From Bryoerythrophyllum caledonicum (Eukaryota > Streptophyta > Bryopsida > Pottiales > Pottiaceae): DNA of 64,000 nucleotides. The notes under the pieces were generated by a model that was given only the letters and a program-made list of their open reading frames with translations, was not told the DNA's origin and did not search any database. A program made the position numbers and the translations under genes. The number at the start of each line of letters is the position of its first letter. The stretch's first letter is position 1. The stretch spans positions 38,020,371 to 38,084,370 of the forward strand of contig OZ020515.1 of NCBI GenBank assembly GCA_963971425.1, given 5' to 3'. Shown here piece after piece: positions 22,997-58,231 of the stretch.

Positions 22997-23092
22997 GCCA
23001 TTGAGGACTCATGAGCCAAGACATGTGTTTTGCATGCCACAAATGCATTGAGGATGTATGAGCTCAAATTGGCTTGGGCATGTTAAACTACA

Positions 23093-24181
23093 ATGTTGCA
23101 ATACTCCATGGACATTGTTAGTATACTTTTATTACTCAACATGGTGTACTTGAAGGAGCTTTCTACAAGCGCTCATACAGACCTTGATAACTCTATTTTG
23201 GTGAAGTTGCAAGCTGGTAGATTCACAAGGGATGTAGCAAGTGAGTTGCAGGTGTCTCAAAGTCATGTTGCAAGACTTAGAAGGAAGAGATTGTCTGATA
23301 TTTCTACTAGTAGTGGTGGTAGAACACAAGTATTAACAGATGCTCAAAAGAGAGCATGCATTAGAGCTGTCAGTGCATCAGGAGGATTTGAAACTGCGAC
23401 ATATGCTACCCAGCATGTACGTGAGGAATGCCAAGTTACTGTAGGTGTTGATATGGTGAGAAGGGTCTTACGTGCAAGAGGACTGAGATCAAAAGTGAAG
23501 CAGAAGAAATCGAAATTGAACCAGAGACACATCAAAGATCGACTTGAATTTGCTAGGCGCCATGAACATTGGACCATTCATGATTGGGAGCACATCATCT
23601 TCTCTGATGAGACAAAGGTAAATCGATTTTGCTCCAATGGTCGCAGTTGGTGTTGGATTCGCAATGAACGGTCTACTGATTTAAAAGAAGTGAAACAAAC
23701 CGTAAAGTTTGGTGGTGGTTCTGTCATGTTGTGGGGTTGTATGACATTTCAAGGCCCAGGCATGTTTTGTAGAATTGAAGGAAGAATGGATCAACATGAG
23801 TACAAAGATATTTTGCAAAGAGATTTAATGTGCACGGTGATGGCATATGATCTTGATCCTTTGAATTTGATATTTCAGCATGACAATGATCCCAAACATA
23901 CAGCAAAAAGTGCTCGCCAATGGCTAAAATCACAAAACTTTGATGCTCTTAAGTGGCCTGCACAATCTCTTGACCTAAATCCAATTGAACATCTTTGGGT
24001 AAGGCTGAAACTTCGTCTTAACCAGTATGAAAGTGCTCCAAAAGGAATTTTAGAGTTGTCAGAACGTATTGAGGAGTGTTGGGCTTCTATAAAACCAGAG
24101 GAGTGTAGGAGGTTGTACGAAAGCATGCCACGACAAATCCAAGTTGTTTTAGCTGCCAAAGGCAAGTGGACAAAATATTAA
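23093..24181 (+). CDS. Tc1-type DD34E transposase
   Basis: The 362-residue product cuts and pastes the element. Residues about 33-68 form a first helix-turn-helix (GRFTRDVASELQVSQSHVAR). An SGGR linker stands where Tc1 proteins have GRPR, and about 82-140 form a second helix-turn-helix. The RNase H-like core has D172 (FSDET), D264 (FQHDNDPKHT) and E299 (NPIEHLW). With 34 residues between the last two it is DD34E, the Tc1 pattern, not the DD39D of plant mariner-like elements. FGGGS and VMLWG motifs (207-215) are present. The length is usual. The first 25 residues are hydrophobic and unlike the family, so a start at the Met at residue 6 or 17 is possible. No lesion seen. Confidence 0.95.
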   Translation: MLQYSMDIVSILLLLNMVYLKELSTSAHTDLDNSILVKLQAGRFTRDVASELQVSQSHVARLRRKRLSDISTSSGGRTQVLTDAQKRACIRAVSASGGFETATYATQHVREECQVTVGVDMVRRVLRARGLRSKVKQKKSKLNQRHIKDRLEFARRHEHWTIHDWEHIIFSDETKVNRFCSNGRSWCWIRNERSTDLKEVKQTVKFGGGSVMLWGCMTFQGPGMFCRIEGRMDQHEYKDILQRDLMCTVMAYDLDPLNLIFQHDNDPKHTAKSARQWLKSQNFDALKWPAQSLDLNPIEHLWVRLKLRLNQYESAPKGILELSERIEECWASIKPEECRRLYESMPRQIQVVLAAKGKWTKY

Positions 24182-45166: not shown

Positions 45167-46244
45167 GTAAAGGTAAGCGTTTTTAAGGGAGAAAGCATCT
45201 AATCCAAATAAATTTTGAGGAATTTGGGTTATAACATTTGACATAAATTTGGGAAGACCACAAATGGATTTTTGGAGAGCTATGATTTTTTTGTTTATTT
45301 TTTTGATAGCGGGCCTAGAATATAGGACTGCGTAGAAACTGTATGCAACTCCAGGACTCAGTACTGTGTGTACAATTATTATTTTTTATTTCATAGTGGT
45401 TGGGCATGGTATTAGTTCTTTGCATTTTTTAGTAAGTTTTGTGGTAGTGGTGTGGATTTGTTTCTTCCATTTAATGATGTGACAAAGTTTTTGCTTAGAT
45501 ATACGTATGGTTCGTTTCGATGTAGTACAGGGATGGGTTGGTTACGGTATTTTATGTTGGCGGTTTGCATAAGTGCTTTGAATGCCGTAGAATTCATTTT
45601 GGATTTGTTTGGACATTCTGTGGCTGCACATTTTTGTGTGCCAACATCCATATCGGACCAATCGCATAATTTGTTAATTTTATTGAGTTGGATTTGTAGT
45701 GATCTGAGTTTGACGGCTATAGCGGCAAGGTCATCTGCATAGGCGGTCGAGTCAATGGTGACTTGTGATGTTCCAAAAGTGTAGCCGTTATTTCATCTTT
45801 GCATCCATTTTAGTAGTGGTTCTAAAAAGATAATTATAGATATGGACTTAGGGTATTAGCTTGTATGGTTCTGCGTTGTCTAGGGATGGGACCGGTCGTT
45901 CCAAAGTATTTCTCAACGTATGCAGTGGACAAGTGAGAGTATATGTATCCAACTAGTGTGACTACGTGAGTGGGGTACTTGAGGTCAGACATAATTGCTA
46001 GTAATCTTGCGTAGTCAATGGAGCCAAATGCATTTTTGAAATCAATATAGAAAATGCATATGTCTTGGTTTGTAAATTGTACATCTTCGAGTGCGGCTAT
46101 TATAGTTTGAAGTTTTCTATTGGTACTTCTTTCCGCACAAAAGCCCTCCCGGTTGTCGTATAAGATTTGGTGTTTTTCTCCATATGAGGATAGTATAGAT
46201 GTGAATGTGCTTGTAAGGAGTTTATGGATAGTGTTGGCTAATGC
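45167..46244 (-). pseudogene. LINE reverse transcriptase
   Basis: Minus-strand reading gives IALANTIHKLLTS at the 5' edge, NREGFCAERSTNRKLQTI, ICIFYIDFKNAFGSIDYARL and, further on, STAYADDLAAIA, the RT catalytic box. A thumb-like stretch follows (AYSFYAVLYSRPAIKKINKK, LQKSICGLPKFMSNVITQIP). This is the non-LTR type of RT. It has stops and frame changes, mainly between about 45900 and 45800. Both edges are insertion junctions: AATT at 46245-46248 on one side, CCCTATTCA at 45158-45166 on the other. Confidence 0.85.
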
Positions 46245-46669
46245 AATTTGTCGTGTAAAGAAAGATCGATAACCACAACAGATCGAGAGTCCTAACCAAC
46301 ATCAAATAAACGAAAAACATACACAAAAACAAGTATACGTAATACACCCTCAAGTGCCCCCCCAAGCGGATAAAGAGACCCTCTATCCAGCTAGGACCAA
46401 ACAACACTAATAAGACTAAACACCACGGTGATGTCGCTGCAACAACTGTACGCATCCAGCCAAAGATGTCACCGTCGTCGAATCAATCAGCATATGAAGA
46501 AGTAACAAAGAGATGGTAGGCCGGGTGCAATGTGAGCCCCATCTTTAATCGCCTTAGGCAATTTTGTTGCCAATCCCTTGGTCAATCTCCACGTTGCCTA
46601 TCCCTGAACCGAAACCAAGAACTCCAACTGGATGGCAACGCACCACACAATGACAAGTCTATGAGGAAT

Positions 46670-49367
46670 TCAAGCCGTTTCATCGGGTGAAACGTGACTC
46701 GAAGACCTCCGACAACGAGGGCAAGTCCAATCCCCGGACGGTAGAGTAGAGAGAGGCGGCGTCAAGCAAGCCATATGCCAACCACGTTGGCAATGGTCAC
46801 AAAGCAACATAGTAGCCGCACCCTTCTTCTCACCACACACAAAACACGGAAGACCCTGTGGCACAACGGCCAACTCAGGATGCACGGAGCCATCAATGGG
46901 CAAATGGCACGGCGCGCAATTTTTGGAGTGCTCACGACACTCCCGGCCATCTTTGCCTTCCAGCAACAAGATGCCACTAGGCAACACATCCTTCACACGA
47001 AGAATGGTGCGCCCAGCCTTGACGTCCAACGTCGTAGGTGCCTCACGCTGCAAATAAACGTAATATCCAGTGGAGAAACGCCGCAACTGAGGTCGATAAG
47101 CGCCGCTGCGAATGCGAGCGTACCGTAATGTGTCGCGGTGTTGAGCGATGGATAAATTCTCCATGGCCATTGGCATGGCCCGCTTGAAGAACTCCGCTCG
47201 GTCACGCAGACACTGGATCCAGACCTCTGGATCATCCAAGTCCACAACTGGGGCCAACTTCTCCCATACAGAACTGGGTAGAATCGGCTCCCGTCCGTAC
47301 AACAACTGATACGGACTGAAAGTGGCCAAAGAGGCGTGCCGGCTAAACCGGTATCCCATGGCGATCCATGGTATCATCAGATCCCAATCACGGTGGCCAC
47401 CCTGAAGTAATCCATACTTCCGTAGTCCACGCTTGACGGTCTGAACCACACGCTCCGCCAAACCGTCCGCTTCCGGATGATCCCTAGAAGTGGTACGATG
47501 GTCAATCAAAGCCTTGGTGCACAAAGCCTCGAAAGCACCAAGGAACTCACGCCCTTGGTCAGTCAACACCTCAGCTGGGGCTCCAAAACGAGCGAGCACC
47601 CGGTCAAGGAATGCCATGGCCGCCAACTCCGAGGAGTTTTGTGGTAATGCCACAAGCTCAATCCACTTGCTGAAGTGCTCCACCATCACCAACACGTATT
47701 TGGCTCCACGTGGGGTGACAACAAGTGGCCCGGCAAAATCCAGAGACCAACGGTAGCCCAAACCCATGATGGGCAAAGGCTGCAACTGTGGTGACAAGGT
47801 GTTGAAGCTGGATCTGACCCGATCACAGACTTCACACCGTGAAACATACGTGGCGACCTGCTGATACATGCCGGTCCACCAATATTGGCTGCGCAACATC
47901 GAATGAGTCCGCCGCACGCCAAAATGACCAAGGTCTTCGTGTACCTGCCGTACCAACGAAGCCCTCTGATCCGGTCTAGGAACTATACGCCTAATTCCAT
48001 CTGGCCACAACCGAAATAGAAAGCCGTTCTCCCAACGGAACCTCGCTATCCGGTGTCCAACTCGATCACGCTCCATGGCCGAAAGAGCGGGCGGAAGTGT
48101 GCCATATTGCAGCTTGTGCAAGACTGGAATGTCTTCCCACACGTCGCTAACAACCTGGGCCTTGTCCGGTTCCTCATCCGCTGCCATATCAGGCAACGTC
48201 GATGTGGATCCAGACATCAATGTGAGGTAGGCTGCTGCATGCCACCCCGGGACAGACTCCTTGTCACAATCCCCATGCCACCTGACACCAGTCAAATCCT
48301 CCTCCGATGGACTTGGATTGCGAGATAGACCATCCGCATCCAAGTTCGTGATGCCCGCCCGGTGTACAACCTCAAAATCATACTCCTGGAGCAACAAAGC
48401 CCACTTGGCAAGCTTGCCAGTAAGCTTGTCAGACTCCATGAGCCACTTCAAAGACTGGTGGTCGGTCACCAAAGTAAAACGTTGCCCATACAAGTAGGGT
48501 CTAAAATGAGCTATGGCCCAAACCGCGGCCAAGGCCTCCCCCTCATAGGGCGAATAGTTGGACTCCGCGTTGTTGTTGCTCCTAGAAGCAAACGCTACAA
48601 CGTACTCCTGTCCCTCATCATCCTTTTGAGTCAACACGGCTCCCAATCCTACTGCACTCCAATCTGTGTGCAAGTGGAAAGGCCGTGTAGCATCTGGACG
48701 CCGCAGTACAGGCGCTGAACCGAGCTTCAGCTTCAAAGTAGCAAACGCCTGTTGTTGCTCCCGTCCCCAAGTCCATGGCTGATCCTTCCCCGTGAGAATA
48801 GTCAAAGGCTTGGCAATCAAGCTAAAGTTCTTGACAAACCGGCGATAGTAATTCGCCAAGCCAAGAAAAGTTCGAAGCCATGACACGTCGATTGGGGCTG
48901 GAATCTTCTGCAACGCATCCACCTTGGCCTGTTGTACGCCAAGACCTCCTGGAACAATCATATGTCCCAAATATGGCAACCGATCGTGGAAGAACTTGCA
49001 CTTGCCATGGTGCAAGCACAATCCCCACTGCCGTAACCTCTCAAACACCGCCTGAAGATGCCTCACATGCTTCTGTGGGCTGCTACTAAAAATGATAACA
49101 TCATCAATATAGCATCGGGCAAACGGTAAACCGGTCAACACCTGGTCCATCACCCTCTGAAACTCAGCGGGTGCGTTCTTGAGGCCAAATGGAAGAAACT
49201 TCCAATGGTAGAGTTGATCTCTCTCATCTAGATCAACTCCCCAGAACGCGGTCTTCACCCTATCTTCCACCATCAATGGTAACTGGTGGTAACCGGACTG
49301 CAAATCCAGAGTACTAAATACTCTGGAGTGTCCCACTGCATCAAACAACTCCTCTGGCGTGGGCATG
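46670..49367 (-). pseudogene. Gypsy pol: RT (C-terminal part), RNase H, integrase, PHD
   Basis: A long open stretch encodes, in order, RT from the FSTLDLQSGYHQ box through CYIDDVIIFS (about 49095-49117), the thumb, and RNase H (HLHTDWSAVGLGAVL; EGEALAAVWAI; LVTDHQSLKWL). The integrase has an HHCC zinc domain (HEDLGHFG..CEVCDRV) and the DDE core (RWSLDFAGP, LTDQGREF, GLAERVVQTVK). After the integrase come a GPY-like tail and a PHD finger. RT then RNase H then integrase is the Ty3/gypsy order. This is part of a broken element. Confidence 0.93.
46700..46850 (-). pseudogene. PHD finger at the end of the gypsy integrase
   Basis: The last 58 residues of the pol frame read CFVCGEKKGAATMLLCDHC, then QRGWHMACL and WTCPRC. 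This is the C4-H-C3 zinc pattern of a PHD finger, including the Trp two residues before the last Cys pair. PHD fingers bind histone H3 tails. Many gypsy elements carry a chromodomain in this place to steer integration, so a PHD here would be a substitute reader. The histone mark cannot be told from sequence. Confidence 0.88.
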
Positions 49368-49372
49368 GGATA

Positions 49373-52158
49373 TGTGAACCAAATAAAACCCCCCCTAGTG
49401 GAGGAATTTATTGTGAGCACAAGGTCCTACTTCATAAGCTTAGCATTGCAAGAGGGCTCATGCATACACATACACAACGTGACCTTAGTTTTGTAAGCGT
49501 TTACTATCATGTGAATTAGTGTGACTTGCCTCAACTAGGTTAGACAATTAATTTGCTTGATGCACCTTAATTACCTTCGTGGCCCATATCCTTCCTTTAC
49601 CTTCTTTCACTTTGCTTCATTTCTCTTCTGTCACTTTTATTTTATTTTATTTTTTTAATTTTTTATTTTTTTAAAATTTATTTTTTCTTTTATTTATATA
49701 TATATATATTTATATGTTTTTATTTTTTTTTATTTATTTTTATTTTTTTTTTAATTTTAATTTTTTTCTTTTTCTTTTACTTTTTCCCTTGGTTGAGCTC
49801 ACTCCATTCAATTAACCCCAGCCGCTAACCTTAGTCAATAAATTCAATTCACATTACCAAATCTTTGCACACAACTTGTCCAACTTCAAAACTCAATAAC
49901 TCTTAGTGGTTTTATCCAAATTCCGATTTTTTTTTAGCCTACCATTACTAGTTCCACATAACCAACTTGATGAGCAATTGAGAATTCCAATTCGACAATT
50001 GTATTAACACCCAACAAGACGACCAGCAGTGATTCACCCCACAAAACACTCAATTACCAATTCCCCATGCACATTCACATACAATTCATTCAATCATCCA
50101 AGAACCAGGGCTAATGTAATCAAGTATCACGTGATTGGCAAATTCATGCTTGAGTCATACAACCTAAATTTTCACAAATTTTGGCAGCGCTTCCGCATGG
50201 AGTTCCAACACCGGAAACCCTAACAACAATTGCAGCAAGGATCTACACATAGGTTCAATCTACATAAAATCAGCACAAGGTGGGAGAATCGAACTCCCTG
50301 TCAGATGGTTGAGGAGCTCCTCGGTCGATCTGCAGCTCCTTCCTGCTCTCGGCTGGAGCCTCACTGCCGACTAGTTGAAGCTGCACTCTGTCTCGCACTC
50401 CGCTGCCGCCTTCCGCTTGCAACTGCAGCTTCCAGTGCCTTCCGCTGCCTCCGCGTGCTGCTCGCCTCCGCACTGACAGCCTTCGGCAAGGTGATCATCA
50501 CACAACCCACACGAATCCTCACAGAGCCTCCACACCGAGGCTCTACCGAATAACGACCTCCAGCAGGGCCTCCGACGAACACCACAAGACGACGACCCTT
50601 GGTACCACCTCCACCGAGACTGTAACAACAACAAAAGGGCCACCGCGATCTTCAACAGCGCCTTCCCACCAGAATCCACGACCAACAGGGGGACGGCCTT
50701 CCCGATCACCGGATCACAACTCCAGCAGCACCTCCCACTCACTACGATCTCACCAACCCACGCGAATCCGAGAACTTCACACCAAGAACCCCGACAGCGC
50801 AGAGTGCAGCAATGTTTTTCACACTCCGCCCCTCTCCACACTCGCGCTCAAAACCCCACGAACAGACTTCTGCCGCTCGGCGCCGCAGCTCCCTTCTCAC
50901 CAAGACCTGCTGCACCTCCCTCGCCAAGCACCAGCCACTTACTCCGCCGTGCTTCAAGCGACGTCACCTCCGCATCCACAGATCTCCTGCCTACTGCAGT
51001 CAAAACCGCAGGAGAAAAAGAAGGACCCACGAACACACAATCTCGCGCTCTGCTCCTGGCCGCCTCTTCACCCCGCGCTCTTCCTGACAGCTCGTCACTG
51101 CCCCTACCTACAGCGTACTTCCTCGCACCGCCAATGCACGCCGAACTCTCCAATTCCAGCCTTGTGATTAAAATCACGGACGCCACCACAGCCGCATTCC
51201 CCGACCGTGTAGCGTCCACTCACTCCGGCTTCCACTGCCGTGCATAGAGCCTCTTTGCCCCGAGCCAATCTAGCGTCACAACCCTCAGCCAGCAACCCAA
51301 CGTGCACACACCTCAGACCCTCCCAGACACTCTCACATTCCAGATTCACACGAAGAAGCTCTGCCCTCCGCTCTTCCCTGTCCTGACGCGAGACCCCCAC
51401 GGCCCAAAAAAAAAACGAGAGAGAGCGAAAACAACTCCCTGTTCGCAGTCAACCCAGTGCCCTCCAGCTCCAACGGTAGCCGCACACGTAACTCACGCTG
51501 GAAGTCCAGCGTTTCTTCAGCAGATTCCGGGGAATATTCCCCGGGAAAACCCAAAATTCCCCCGAGCCAGCTCGGGGGAAGGAAGAAAACAAAAAATAAA
51601 AAAAAGTTTTTAAAGGCAGCTTCGGCATGCCATTAAGGGCAGCCCATGATCGCCAATAATTGGTGCTAATTTCTCCCCTCGTCACCATCTAACTTTTCTA
51701 ATTTCTTCCAAGGCCATGTGCCACTACTTCGTGCATGGTTTTTAAAAGATTAACTACCAGAGTGGCCACATCATGGTTGCACTCCGAGTTTTGTTTACTT
51801 TTGTTTTTAGTTTGTTTATTTAATTACTTATTTTTCTACTTACCTCTTTGGTTTTTTAGTTTGTTTTTTCCAAGGCTTCCTCCCATTGTGTTGAAAACAC
51901 ATGTGGTTTGAGGTGTCTCCCCTTTCTTTTTTCTTTTTTCTTTTTTTTTTAATTTTTAGGTTTTTAACAAAATTAAATCTCCAATTGGGGATGATGACCT
52001 CCTTCTACATTAGGAAATGGCAAGTAAAAGGCCTTTTCGAGCCCTTTAACCACAATAGGTGGTTTAGTCTAACCATCTCACCCCAACTACCACTTCCTAA
52101 TGCTAACTAGTTAATCTTAATGCCCAAATGACATCGTGCGCCGGTTTTGGGGCTCACA
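49373..52158. mobile_element. 2.8-kb LTR-type insertion in the gypsy pol, probably a solo LTR
   Basis: Starts TGTGAACC and ends GGCTCACA, and is flanked by GGATA on both sides (49368-49372 and 52159-52163), a 5-bp duplication as LTR integrases make. RT coding flanks it on both sides. I see no gag or pol inside and no direct repeat at its two ends, so a single long LTR fits best; a non-autonomous element is the alternative. 49625-49790 is T-rich, 50280-51600 is GC-rich. Its ends differ from those of the gypsy element it hit, so it is another family. Confidence 0.72.
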
Positions 52159-52163
52159 GGATA

Positions 52164-52600
52164 CCGATCCGACTTGGTCTTACGATTGACCGGTCTATAA
52201 TCCCCACACATCCGCTTCTCCGTCCATTTGCCAAAGATGTCCTTCTTCGATGGCATCACCGTGGCACAAGCGTACTCGTCGTTGGAGAGCTCAATCAAAC
52301 TGGCGGCCAACAACTCCTGACAACGAGTCTGAACCCCAACTTTCTTAGAGAGACTGAGCTTGTACGGTCGTTGGAAGATCGGGTGGTCATCCTCCAACTG
52401 AATGTGAATCGGTTTGCCTCTATAGCCCTCCAAATCATGGAGACTAAAGGCAAAACAACTACGATACGAACGTATAAACGCTCGTACCCTCCGTGCCTCG
52501 GCACCAGTAAGATGTGGCCCCAAATCCAGAGGCCAATCATCAAACTCCGTGGTCTCTTTCTCCACCGTAGAAGACTCACCGCGTTCCGGCACGGCCGGTG
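52164..52600 (-). pseudogene. Gypsy RT, N-terminal part
   Basis: Contains IQLEDDHPIFQRPYKLSLSK, ELLAASLIELSNDEYACATV and CGDYRPVNRKTKSDRYP, the usual entry to gypsy RT. It lies directly after the methyltransferase region and before the 2.8-kb insertion. Part of the broken element. Confidence 0.88.
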
Positions 52601-52899
52601 ATTGCTACTTGGTAGCAGAGAGGGCATTAATGCCCCCAGACCCCTCACTCACAGGATCTACAGAAAATCCCGTGTCGTGATGATAAAACTCGGAAAAGAT
52701 ATCCCGAGCATATTCACGGCCAAAGTCCTCTGCCAAGGCTGCAAAGACACGCTGAGCACGAAGCTCCTCAGCTGCATGCCTCTTCAAACGAAAAAGCAAC
52801 TCCGCTTCCTCGATCTCTATGAGATGTGGCACCGCTGCCCCCTGACCATCAGAGTCTGCCCCCAGCACGCGTGGATGGTCACTCGAACGGCGTTGAGCG

Positions 52900-53870
52900 G
52901 CGAAACAGAGGCCACATACCCAAACGAGTGTGTTGAGATCAATGGCTTGACCCAACAAATAACGGCGCTGGCCCTCAGAAAGATCCGGTGCGGCGGTGGT
53001 GCGTGTCAAAAAGCCCATCACCCGCTCCCACTCATCGGCAGAAGGCTCCTCGTAAGTTTGGGAAGAAGAATCCCAAACCATGCCCGGACCACGTGTCCTG
53101 AAGGCAAAAGAGCCCGGATAGCACATCAAGGTGGGAAATGCCCCCCGAGTTAAACCAACGCGGTTGACCACCGCCAATGGTGGCTCATCCTCCTTGGTAA
53201 CCTCCGTGGATACACGGTGGTCATCCAAAATGTCATCGACCTCACGGTGCACGGGCCGTTGCACTTGAGCAAGTGCAGAAGTGAGCGTCGTGGATGATGC
53301 CATGTTGATCCAAATCCAACGTGGCCGATGGGCGTAAGATCACAACGCCGCGGCATCAACAAATGTAGGGGGACCAAGAAGGTGATGGATGTACGCCCCA
53401 TCCTCACGCACTTTCGTCCGTGTATTCCCCAATGGGGGTACATTCTCAAAAATGTACCCCGGTGGTGTCGATTGGTGGGTAATCCACCACTGGACGAGCC
53501 TGAGCAAATCCGCAAATAGACCCGACCGTGGATCATCCAAGCCACGTCCACTTCCCGCCCGTGAATGGCCTTGGCAAGGCCATCTGGCAATCACCAAGTC
53601 CACGTGACCTAACCGGTGAAGATCATCCTCACTGATCAACGTCACATCACGTGGCAACTTGCCAAAACACCCTCAAATCGCAGAAGATGGTAACTGCTCT
53701 GGATACAACGCCAGAAGATGCTGAATGTGATGGTGAGCGGCATGGTTGGCTGCAAAGCCACTATCCACGTGGATATACCGTCGTACCTTGAGCCCGACCT
53801 CCAACACAGCCGCGAGCCCCGTACTGATACCGGCAAATAACTCCACAAGGGTAATACCCTCATCTGGTGA
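52900..53870 (-). pseudogene. Cytosine-5 DNA methyltransferase region of the gypsy element
   Basis: Cytosine-5 methyltransferases move a methyl group from S-adenosylmethionine to cytosine. In order on the minus strand: motif I, TLVELFAGISTGLAAVLEVG (about 53860-53800, in the same open frame as gag-protease); motif IV, LVIARWPCQGHSRAG with the catalytic Cys (about 53590-53550); motif VI, YIFENVPPLG (about 53450); a motif VIII-like LTRGAFPTLMCYPGS (about 53150); motif IX, PSADEWERVMGF (about 53030); motif X, RRYLLGQAIDLNTLVW (about 52960). Between VI and VIII lies a variable stretch where the target-recognition part belongs. A span near 970 bp fits a catalytic core without regulatory domains. 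PCQ and ENV are the canonical forms. The region is broken. Confidence 0.88.
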
Positions 53871-53872
53871 TC

Positions 53873-56525
53873 GCCACTGAATAGTACGAGCCAACAACGG
53901 AGTGGAAGAGTCCACTGAAGGCAGTGGAGCATCAAGAGCATCCACGATCTCTCCACTCAGACGAGTGAGCTCCAACGGTGTCCCCCACGGCGGAAGCGGA
54001 TCCTTGCAATGACGGATAGGGATCGCCAATGGTGGGTGCTCGCGTGAATCCTCTACCACAGACATAAATGCATATGTCTCCTCCAAAAGTGAAAAAGCAC
54101 ACGGCAAGTCTGATGCCAGAGCACTACACCCAAACATAGCGTCTGTCGTCGAAGTCACCGCGCTAGCTACGAAGACTACGGGGATGAGCTCCTTCCTGCC
54201 ATCACCGGCAGACCACCCTGGCCTAATCCAGGCCTCCTCCGTCCAGTTATCCACCCCAAATCCAAGTGGATATAGTGCCTGCTGGCCCACCAAAATATCG
54301 TAGTTGGTGGCGCCAGTAACAGCGCACTGAAGGGAGACATGGGAGAACAATGGACCAGATCCCACGCCAAACATCAACTGCAACGGATGTCGGGTGTAGC
54401 CCATGGCCTTCTCCGTGCCCCCAACCGATGTAACAATCGTGAATGGACAAGGCTCGAGGTCCAAAGCACCTAGACCCAAATCCAGGGCTGGCTGCTTGCC
54501 AATCATCACTGGCTGAGCCCCGGAGTCCAAGATAACACGTAGGGGGGTAGCTCGAGTGGAGTTGCCATCCGTACGGCCTACCACCATGACTCCATTGTCA
54601 TTCACCAAACGTACCACCCCTGGACGCACACTACGTCGCTCCCGTGCCGACCGGGCTGCAACGTCAGACAAATAAGCCACTCCAGAGATCAAGGCCCGAT
54701 CCCTGGACGACTGCTCCATAGGTGTGGAAGTGGCATTGGCCTCAAACGCGGAAATAGCCTCCGCCGCCAACTTGGCCAGCATTGCCACCAAATCCTCCTC
54801 AGTGGGTGGAGCGGTCACTGCTTGTGACACTTCCAACGACGGAATGGGCACCTTGCCTTCCAACATACTACCCGCCAAATGGAATATACTGGATGGTTGA
54901 AAATCCGGTGTGAGAAAGTCCACACCAGCAAACACCGGCAATTGCAACACCTTATACGCCAAGGTATGTACAGCATCTCCAGGACTGGAAGAAACCGGTG
55001 GGACCGGAATCGAAGTGAGAGCGGCAGTAGAAGTAGCCGCATCCGCGATGCTGAACGACAGAGGTAGCCGGGACTGACCAATGTGGTCCGGCAAACCCGC
55101 ATGGCGTGAACGACCGCTACTACCCGGCACAGTGGAAGAGGGTGCCACCGCCTGTGTAATGGTCTGAGCACGAGTGGCAACCGCTGCCACCACCTCCCCC
55201 GAAGCGCCATACAAGTAGCGATCTAAGGCTGAAGATGAGCCCTGACCCGTCATCACAGGCCGTGTGTCTACCACTTGCCCCAAAGAAGCCATCGCGCTCA
55301 TCTGCTTCTTCAACTCCGCCAATTCGGATTGAAGTGACTTCACGGCATCCGTTCCAACAGCCGAAGATCCTGGGCGCTTCTCTGGGTGAAGAGAAAAGCA
55401 GTTCTCATCACTGTGGCCAGGCTTGCCACAGTGAGAGCATGTCACAGGCTTCTTCCCCTTGCTCCCAGTCTTCTCCGTAAGCTTGGCCGCCTCGGTCTTG
55501 GGCTTGGCCTTCCTCGCCACTGCCTCCTTCTTCTTCGGACAATTGGGGTCCCCCTTGGTGTGACCGGCCTCTCCACAAGCCCAACAATGCACAACCTTGT
55601 CAGGTTGTGCTTCTGCCAAGCTATCAGTCGCCGTAGCAAGCTTCTTGGGCTTCGGAGCATCCATAAGCGACGTGACCAAGTTTGTGGCCTCGCTCACACC
55701 CAACGCCCGGTCAAGCGCTTCCACCTCGGCGAACGCCTGAGCCAAGGTCGCGTTGCCGTGGTACCGGAAGAGCAAATGCGGACTGATCAACTCTACCATC
55801 CGCTTGTCGAGCTTGGAGATAAAAATCTTCACAAGTTGGCGCTCCGTAAAGACATCACCAGCCTCCGCCGCCAACCGTGCCAACCGTGTGTACATGGTGC
55901 GTGGCGTGTCTTCCTTCTCACGGCGGAAGTCCTCGATGCGGTGCATCTGATCGCGCCGAAACCCCCCGTACTCCACCTCCAGATGCGCCATGAATTGCGC
56001 CAAAGGATCGAAGGCTGGCGGGTTGCCAACCGCCACCAATGCTGCACGTGTGGCTACGGCCAAACGAGACATGGCCCTCATGCCAGCTCGTTCGTCCACA
56101 ATGGCAACACCCTTGCCCTTGGAGTCCTCACCGAGGAAACTCTCCTCCTCCATGGGCTCCTCGGTGGAAGTCGAGAGTTGGGCAACCGCACTCTCCTTGA
56201 GTGCAGTGACCAACTCCACACGCTGGCGCCAATACTCCTCAACCGGGCGCAACTCTGCCTCGTGCTGCGTGGTCCACCTCCCATATGTCTGAAGTGCCTC
56301 CAGCTCCAAATGCTGGGGCAAAAGCTCGAACGCGTACCAATCGTTGAACGACGGCGTCCGCTGGCGCTTCTCCTTCATCCAAGTTTGAAATCGGAGACGC
56401 CAATCGGATAGGGAGATGCCCCCAGCCCGTCCCGAGAACCTGTCTCGCACGACATGACGGTGATCGTCCTCCATGTCGTCAAACGTGCCCACACTCCAGA
56501 CCCGAAGCCTACGGTCGGTATCCAA
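53873..56525 (-). pseudogene. Gypsy gag and protease
   Basis: A long open stretch starts MDTDRRLRVW. A gag core of helical text (residues about 40-330) precedes two zinc knuckles: CWACGEAGHTKGDPNC, an unusual long spacing, and CSHCGKPGHSDENC, the classical CCHC. A Ser/Ala/Thr-rich linker follows, then an aspartic protease with LRVILDSGAQPVMIG (about 54540-54500). The same stretch runs into methyltransferase motif I, so the enzyme is joined to the gag-protease polyprotein. Part of the broken element. Confidence 0.9.
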
Positions 56526-58231
56526 CGCCGAAACAGGCTTAAAAGCCTCGTCGGTATCCGACCCTGGCCCAAAGTCTGTGGTGGAAGTACTCTCCGAGTG
56601 GTTTGGTCAGGGAGAGTGGTAATACCGACTCCGGGTACTCACCATAAACAAAAACCACCTCGGGATCTATCTACGGGTACTATCTAAAGGATAAGGGTAC
56701 AAACGGGCAACCTGCACCTACAAAATCACCAAGCTGTGTGGATCACCGGTCATCACCTCCGACTACCACAGGTCCAACCACATCCCCCCACATAGAAAGG
56801 TCTTGCCGGCCATAAATCCGACTTCACCCCTACGGTACCCTATCACAAACTGGAACAACAAGAAATGGGGCCACCGGAAAATACCGGCAACAAGCCCGCA
56901 ACACGGGGGAGGTACCGCACAAGAATCCAGAAATCAAAACCGGATCCTCTCCCCCAACAACATAAAAGCAGGAAAATGAAAGAGACAACGCCACTAGCAC
57001 ACGCCTGCAGTGGATGCCTCAAAGTCGCAAAACCTGCAAATCAAAGAGAAACACCGCAAGGTGTGCCCCCAATGTCTAAAAACTAAGGAGGTAATAGAAT
57101 CCTATGGTCACGGTGTTCAAAAACACTAGTCCCCCAACGAAATTCAAACCATGGGTGACAAACGTGCCAAAACGTCAATCCAATACTAGAATTGGATAAA
57201 TGATGAGATTCCTTAACTATAAACGAAAGTTTCACTCAAAACTAGAGTAAAAATGCACTAGCTAATTACCTCCGAAGTTAGACACTAAACACTTTTATTT
57301 TTATTTTTTTATAGGTCACATAAACATGTGATTGTTTTGAAGACACCTAAAAAATGTCGGTTTTTGAAAGTGCTAAAAACCTAAATTTTACTGCTTTAAA
57401 AGGCTTATAATTCCTCTGCGAACTCAAATCCGCAATCGGAATCCAAAAATAATCAAAATTGCAAAAGTTAAAATTTTGATGTTTTGGTCCAGGGATGTGC
57501 TGAAATTTCAGCCCAAAAGTGACGGTTTTAGGAACTTCGGCACGGTTTAGGGTCCCTAACGGAAATACGTACCCCAACGGATTTGCGACCCAGCGGATGA
57601 AAACTGCCACAGTGGATGAAAAACCACCGTGGATGAAAAATCGCGCGGCGGATGAAAAATTTGCACAGCAGGTCCAGAAGCTGATCCACCTTGCTCCAAT
57701 CTTCTACCGCTCACAACTTCTTCAAAAATTGTCCAAATCGCACGCCGTTTGTCGCATTAGCTTCCTCTAAACCCGCTCTACGACATCATGCTAAGTACCC
57801 ACAAGTTTTCTCACAATTTCTAGCTCCATAAGACGAGATCTAATTGTAGAAAATGGAGGGTCTTTGTCAAGTGAATCACATGTGTTTTCCACAAGAAGTC
57901 AAGCGACACGCACTCCACAAGGGGAGAATCAACGAGTGCAACTAAAGTAGAGAATGCGGAGCTTTTACTAATGATAAACCATCACTTTACAAGCAAAGAA
58001 CTCACTAATCACTCTCTAACCTCACTCACAAAGCTTGACTTGACAAAGATGTCAAGTCAAGGACGTGTGCGGTGCTATACGCACACGCATACAATCCTAA
58101 GTGGATGAAAATCATCCGCGGATGAAAACGGAGCGTTGCCGTTCGTCCCTGAACACACGTAGATTAGTAACAAACTAATCTACGCTAAAATCTACGATAC
58201 GGAGAGACCCTCGACGCCACATCCCGTGACA
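56526..58231 (-). other. Leader and outer end of the gypsy element
   Basis: About 1.7 kb before gag, with no coding region. It contains a repeated GTGGATGAAAA word (57600-57655, and again near 58100-58130) and a GTCAAGTCAAG-type stretch near 58030-58065. The outer end is CGTGACA next to AATT. I could not place a primer-binding site or define an LTR here. Confidence 0.55.

Follow-up and report, generated by a model that had tools for sequence, protein, structure and literature searches.

A DNMT3-type cytosine methyltransferase in a Ty3/gypsy retrotransposon family with split terminal repeats in Bryoerythrophyllum caledonicum

We analyzed a 64,000-nucleotide stretch of the Bryoerythrophyllum caledonicum genome (GCA_963971425.1, contig OZ020515.1, positions 38,020,371 to 38,084,370 of the forward strand; hereafter the window) and found on its minus strand a degenerate Ty3/gypsy retrotransposon with a cytosine-5 methyltransferase domain between protease and reverse transcriptase (RT). 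The window copy is dead, and intact relatives exist elsewhere. Its features are as follows, in window coordinates:

46249..58231 (-), whole degenerate element, layout A-body-B, exact ends from alignment to copies L048-L051
58232-58235 and 46245-46248, flanking target-site duplication AATT
57867..58231 (-), left terminal repeat A, start TGTC, 88% identical to A of L048 by alignment
57831..57885 (-), end of A and primer-binding side, with a 12-nt reverse-complement match inside A
53673..56606 (-), gag, protease and methyltransferase through and past motif I, in a single open frame; domains named from their resemblance to sibling copies
55586-55539 and 55439-55398 (-), gag zinc knuckles
54530-54510 (-), protease DSGA
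52857..53939 (-), DNMT3-type cytosine-5 methyltransferase domain, 361 aa, two in-frame stops
53823-53846 (-), motif I, within the gag-protease frame
53562-53582 (-), motif IV
53427-53447 (-), motif VI ENV
53307-53330 (-), motif VIII
53138-52935 (-), later methyltransferase motifs
52605..52607 (-), TAG between methyltransferase and RT, context TAG-CAA-TCA; RT continues in the same frame
52159..52604 (-), N-terminal part of RT, by alignment to an intact copy
49373..52158 (no strand), foreign insertion of about 2.8 kb splitting RT, not element sequence, by alignment to an intact copy
46670..49372 (-), remaining RT, RNase H, integrase (H2C2 and DDE core) and C-terminal PHD finger
46846-46712 (-), PHD finger
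46249..46349 (-), repeat B, about 100 bp, end ...CACGACA, with a polypurine tract-like G-run just before it

A Pfam scan of the window's frame pieces (E 0.01; PF00145 cut-off 22 bits) returned the C5 methyltransferase family at 53340-53672 (-), the piece holding motifs IV and VI (E 6.4e-11, 42.7 bits); the neighboring pieces 53673-56606 and 52605-53339, each scanned alone, had no Pfam match at this threshold. The profile search that the initial annotation had set as a test was thus significant, and the motif order it described, with motifs I, IV, VI, VIII and later ones between protease and RT, could be read position by position. The full domain (C2:38073227-38074309 in the genome) is 92% identical to a sibling domain across all 361 residues and contains two TGA codons. 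Motif I lies in the gag-protease frame, as had been claimed; the frame layout required correction, since gag, protease and methyltransferase form a single frame with two stops (53673 and 53340) and no frameshift.

Among solved families, DNMT3 is the closest to the element methyltransferase, which appears to be a DNMT3-derived enzyme built into a gypsy polyprotein. In the aligned rows, the catalytic Cys is kept in 81/81, the Glu of ENV in 83/83 and the motif VIII Arg positions in 82 and 83 of 83. The ratio of nonsynonymous to synonymous substitution rates (dN/dS) of the domain falls between those of gag and protease. The alignments demonstrate a complete domain that is, as substitution rates indicate, under purifying selection. 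Motif IV reads ECQ instead of PCQ in P0024, P0034 and P0063 (domain before RT) and in P0041 (domain between RNase H and integrase). We also considered a viral origin and rejected it: a scan of viral contigs with a single domain, suited to close relatives only, gave two pattern matches, neither of which was confirmed.

We further surveyed the genome (437 Mb, 894 contigs), whose 58 matches to chlorophyll a/b-binding proteins mark it as that of a green plant, with methyltransferase probes of two subfamilies. The subfamily-A probe scored 105 places of 2183 candidates (85-100% identity) and the subfamily-B probe 113 of 2295 (78-100% identity). Given that the A and B domains are only about 52% identical, no place belongs to both lists, and the genome holds at least 218 methyltransferase places. 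The domain is therefore a regular part of this Ty3/gypsy family, which settles whether the window copy was a one-off. From the opposite direction, 45 places carrying RT through the PHD finger were scored of 7889 candidates, 38 of them with a scored methyltransferase within 3 kb upstream, and tblastn in 500-base stretches recovered the domain in six of the remaining seven. Upstream methyltransferases were likewise found for 30/32 right ends of subfamily B, mostly at 4.17 kb, and for 33/49 of subfamily A, mostly at 4.23 kb; ends without one may be truncated copies or have unscored domains. The family has the order RT-RNase H-integrase with a DDE core that characterizes Ty3/gypsy elements; in place of identical direct long terminal repeats (LTRs) at both ends, it has repeat A on the left and B-A-B on the right. 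It is a gypsy element by its enzymes and unusual by its ends.

Two other results of the survey concern methyltransferases outside the family. A search for a host DNMT3 with hagfish DNMT3A scored 43 places, many at element places, among which no host gene could be distinguished. The best PF00145 match of the genome (L001, C14:16016358-16017317, -; 2.4e-62) is a single-frame, bacterial-looking modification methylase on a chromosome-size contig, a possible case of gene transfer or contamination.

The methyltransferase and RT are separated by a UAG codon in a conserved context. The end of the first frame, located by its last residues in ten elements and in L002-L030, was found in 33 rows of subfamily A (29 different copies), with UAG-CAA in 33/33 and a following codon of the form YYA in 31/33. 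UAG-CAA-UCA stands in the window and in both of the subfamily-B copies read. For type I readthrough, the described context is UAG CAR YYA (PMC11166343), which the element UAG matches; readthrough itself is predicted. With such a leaky-type UAG placed after the methyltransferase, the enzyme should be made together with Gag-protease, in excess over RT-integrase.

Among ten fetched elements, both ends were located in seven, all with A on the left (362-374 bp aligned) and B-A-B on the right; in L040 only the right B-A-B was found, and in L042 and L046 neither end was located. Repeat B measures 99-101 bp in subfamily B and 230-233 bp in subfamily A. Within elements, A copies are 98.6-100% and B copies 99-100% identical, so the insertions look young. 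The seven copies and the window element all have outer ends TGTC and GACA with exact 4-bp target duplications, and in those eight elements the inner B|A border is the perfect palindrome GACA-GC-TGTC. Across the genome, 84 B|A borders of subfamily B include 68 exact ones, 14 with a different middle dinucleotide and two that are longer.

The flanks of the body resemble priming sites. The G-run adjoins the first B in both subfamilies, and the site beside the left A has a 13-nt reverse complement inside A in 7/7 copies (12 nt in the window), compared with a maximum of 10 nt in 300 random draws from one copy. In self-priming retrotransposons of the Tf1 type, the primer site pairs with the 5' end of the element's own RNA. 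The match suggests that the RNA of the present family may prime itself in this way. The A|B borders are identical in 47/49 cases in one sublineage of subfamily A and in 30/32 in subfamily B, as counted by patterns that detect only borders with intact flanks and would miss larger variants; of the variants, one has three primer-side bases and one polypurine-side base, and the other three have one extra base. Paired A|B borders lie one A-B unit apart at C12:23035028 and 23035633 (605 bases) and at C202:2074 and 2538 (464 bases), as would result from an extra A-B unit in these copies.

A PHD finger (E 1.6e-10 to 1.5e-9) lies at the C-terminal end of all four integrase-bearing frames scanned, including that of the window. 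The initial annotation had described the enzyme as lacking regulatory domains. Pfam indeed shows none in the enzyme, but the element carries this PHD finger on its integrase. The best solved relatives of the finger are PHF12, CHD4, KDM5B and others, several of which read unmethylated H3K4. By analogy, a role at the histone H3 tail is a lead. Among the papers listed on PHD fingers in gypsy integrases, judged by titles and abstract openings, none concerned this family.

We next examined the distribution of the family. A search with the methyltransferase domain returned 67 proteins, 66 element-type by domain content or likeness and one hagfish DNMT3A, and a profile search returned 253 (120 listed). 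Named sources are Marchantia polymorpha, Marchantia paleacea, Calypogeia fissa, Sphagnum fallax, Sphagnum troendelagicum, Closterium, Mesostigma, Haematococcus and Monoraphidium, the rest being mostly metagenome contigs. The name Klebsormidium is absent among the 120 of 253 profile matches listed, and no K. nitens methyltransferase was recovered there. An integrase-PHD search (442 matches, 120 listed) added Klebsormidium nitens and Volvox reticuliferus, the protein of the latter also containing part of the methyltransferase. One methyltransferase of this family (P0189) is filed under the bacterial metagenome bin Candidatus Obscuribacterales, probably a misbinned contig.

The relatives show two layouts. 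In the first, seen in this host, in Marchantia and Closterium and in some contigs, the methyltransferase precedes RT; in the second, seen in Haematococcus and in many contigs, it lies between RNase H and integrase. Trees were drawn from a pool of 184 proteins, combining the 67 of the domain search with the best 120 of 442 integrase-PHD matches, which overlap; they were quick searches supported by the Shimodaira-Hasegawa-like approximate likelihood-ratio test (SH-aLRT) only, with long branches meeting, one cellular outgroup and unequal letter make-up in three rows. The methyltransferase tree (82 proteins with spans of 250-420 and two rows of this genome) groups the second layout in one clade (44 rows, SH-aLRT 99), 13 rows being assigned to it solely by a domain lying shortly before the integrase. 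The RT-RNase H-integrase tree (65 proteins with all three long enough and two rows of this genome) does the same (25 rows, SH-aLRT 100). The latter clade includes P0136 and P0181, long proteins without the domain that we read as losses, and P0160 and P0162, which also lack it and are too short for their upstream part to be judged. A single capture and then a single move of the domain would be the simplest account, not proven by quick trees with a single cellular outgroup.

One methyltransferase-bearing gypsy family was already known from an alga (KnitGypsy-Dnmt3, from Klebsormidium nitens; de Mendoza et al. 2018, PMC5890265), and the present family has relatives across green plants. A literature phrase search for retrotransposon-encoded DNMTs returned PMC5890265 alone; a separate paper mentions retrotransposon-embedded DNMT3s for Copia and DIRS (PMC12344493). 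According to the descriptions in PMC5890265, the two families share LTR gypsy domains, a Dnmt3-type methyltransferase within an intronless reading frame, purifying selection and, compared by legend text, the DIRS-like repeat order A-coding-B-A-B. An integrase-PHD fragment from K. nitens (KFL_015960010) shares 53% identity with this element over 71% of the query region, and together with KnitGypsy-Dnmt3 it bears out the proposed link to charophyte retroelements. The families differ in that the main text on KnitGypsy-Dnmt3 does not mention a PHD finger, which this element has, and in that the algal domain is placed in the Pol open reading frame (ORF), whereas here it lies before the leaky-type UAG (PMC5890265). 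Moreover, the algal element was called a K. nitens-lineage acquisition (PMC5890265), whereas we find relatives in bryophytes, streptophyte algae and chlorophytes. The dinoflagellate SymbioDIRS-Dnmt3 and SymbioLINE-Dnmt are likewise retrotransposons encoding cytosine methyltransferases (PMC5890265). SymbioDIRS-Dnmt3 has the same repeat order as this element and an enzyme active on CG in yeast; DIRS elements use a tyrosine recombinase, in contrast to the DDE integrase and 4-bp target duplications found here, and SymbioLINE-Dnmt is an ORF1/ORF2 element without LTRs, unlike this one (PMC5890265).

REM1 of Chlamydomonas (Perez-Alegre et al. 2005) is a green-algal Ty3/gypsy element that reportedly has PHD-finger and chromodomain modules and is not known to carry a methyltransferase. 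Its integrase module with the chromodomain is described as truncated and in reverse frame (PMC2774666).

Taken together, we are moderately confident of a reading in which the window element is an inactivated member of an old but recently active green-plant gypsy family with a DNMT3-derived domain and the following cycle. Gag-protease-methyltransferase would be the abundant product and RT-RNase H-integrase-PHD the rarer readthrough product. The element RNA would prime itself, the site beside A starting the minus strand and the G-run the plus strand; with these two primers, the LTR of the complementary DNA (cDNA) would be B-A and the cDNA itself BA-body-BA. The cDNA ends would be joined into a circle, leaving the A|B border as the scar, and the integrase would cut GACA-GC-TGTC on both strands of the circle (proposed substrate GACAGCTGTC, cut after CA on both strands) and insert A-body-B-A-B. 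Integrated copies would thus be BA-body-BA permuted, with the ends joined and the circle opened at the first palindrome. Cleavage after CA on each palindrome strand would leave two-base overhangs, as in ordinary 3' processing. Foamy-virus integrase is reported to cleave a palindrome of two back-to-back ends in 2-LTR circles (PMC1180852); that palindrome is the LTR-LTR junction, whereas the present one lies inside the LTR predicted from reverse transcription and is read from integrated copies.

Less certainly, the enzyme, present in the particle at Gag dose, would methylate cytosines of the cDNA before insertion, and the integrase PHD finger would recognize a histone H3 tail in target chromatin; new copies would then arrive pre-marked in chosen chromatin. 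Self-methylation of cDNA was proposed by de Mendoza et al. (PMC5890265) and is the role we favor for the enzyme here. The initial annotation suggested that new copies receive their methylation state from the enzyme, a plausible prediction. More broadly, we tentatively propose, somewhat short of calling it probable and with the ends read in this host only, that a green-plant gypsy clade integrates from a joined-end circle through an internal palindrome (ends 2 nt apart) instead of from cDNA ends, and carries a DNMT3 writer at Gag dose and an H3-tail-type PHD reader, after one ancient capture and a later move of the domain within pol.

Retrotransposons are normally targets of DNA methylation, and an old, successful family that keeps a selected methyltransferase reverses this arms-race picture, in that the element may mark its own new copies. 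The question of who methylates a new copy is directly testable in bryophytes, because the laboratory model Marchantia carries relatives. The resolved ends also give a checkable scheme for the use of a circle by a gypsy integrase, which would explain the DIRS-like repeats reported for K. nitens in 2018.

Several observations weigh against this explanation. The circular cDNA is itself deduced from integrated copies, and the A|B borders, found only where flanks are intact, are more uniform than usual for blunt end-joining. A scored methyltransferase lies upstream of only 50/84 B|A borders, and tblastn in 500-base stretches found none at the expected spot of one RT-PHD place (L056). The Pro preceding the catalytic Cys is kept in only 41/82 aligned rows, and one protease comparison (L034-L042) gave a dN/dS of 2.6, on 9 changes. 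The K. nitens gypsy enzyme produced no methylation in yeast, a result its authors call inconclusive (PMC5890265). The CpG observed/expected ratio is 0.76-0.88 in elements vs 0.41-0.80 in flanks and 0.56 at window positions 1-45000, from context counts that mix subfamily differences with decay; CpG is thus not depleted, and there is no footprint of heavy CG self-methylation. In the 96%-identical part of the window copy, compared with a single reference copy to which some changes may belong, transitions affect CG (29/551) and CHG (26/421) about three times as frequently as CHH (27/1509), and the similar CG and CHG change points to ordinary plant silencing after insertion.

Four alternatives were weighed. 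We hold it rather unlikely that the A-body-B-A-B ends arise by DIRS-like template switching, without an integrase-cut joined-end circle. DIRS elements have the same repeat order (PMC5890265), and 77/81 A|B borders are identical within their subfamily; however, the copies have exact 4-bp duplications and a DDE (rve) integrase, no PF00589 tyrosine recombinase was found by Pfam at E 0.05 in the seven frames scanned, the polypurine run at B and the self-complementary site at A predict an LTR of B-A, and one border variant holds both primer-side and polypurine-side bases. An enzyme acting mainly on host DNA, host chromatin or RNA instead of element cDNA appears distinctly unlikely: its Gag-side placement predicts an abundant product and the elements show no CG depletion, as such a role would allow, whereas its fold and profile resemble DNMT3 more closely than the tRNA enzyme DNMT2, which speaks against such a role, if not directly. 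Slightly less credible still is a non-catalytic role such as binding or coating cDNA in the particle; the altered Pro in half of the rows and the silence of the K. nitens enzyme in yeast (PMC5890265) would suit it, but the aligned rows retain the catalytic Cys, Glu and Arg with at most one exception each, and dN/dS lies between the gag and protease values. Finally, a single event in which a host methyltransferase gene entered one gypsy copy, to which the lone copy within the window would correspond, is already refuted for practical purposes by the copy survey, with its two subfamilies and mostly near-constant spacing from methyltransferase to element ends, and by relatives in other species with the same domain order.

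The window copy has further peculiarities of its own. Other copies continue after B with an A-B unit that is missing here, and the A-body-B layout of the window copy would fit a one-LTR circle or later recombination between two B copies. Across gag, protease and early methyltransferase (52633-58231), it mostly shares 82-92% identity with a subfamily-B copy, less behind the left A, and 92-98% downstream (46249-52632), as if the copy were a mosaic of two B sublineages. In alignment to an intact copy, the borders of the insertion at 49373-52158 overlap by 5 bases, and self-comparison revealed no clear terminal repeats in it. Across the right border of the element runs an RT frame (45834-46301; RVT_1, 4.3e-5), possibly part of another retroelement into or next to which the element inserted. 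Elsewhere in the window, a frame of 364 aa at 23087-24181 encodes a Tc1/mariner-type transposase (DDE_3, 8.8e-13).
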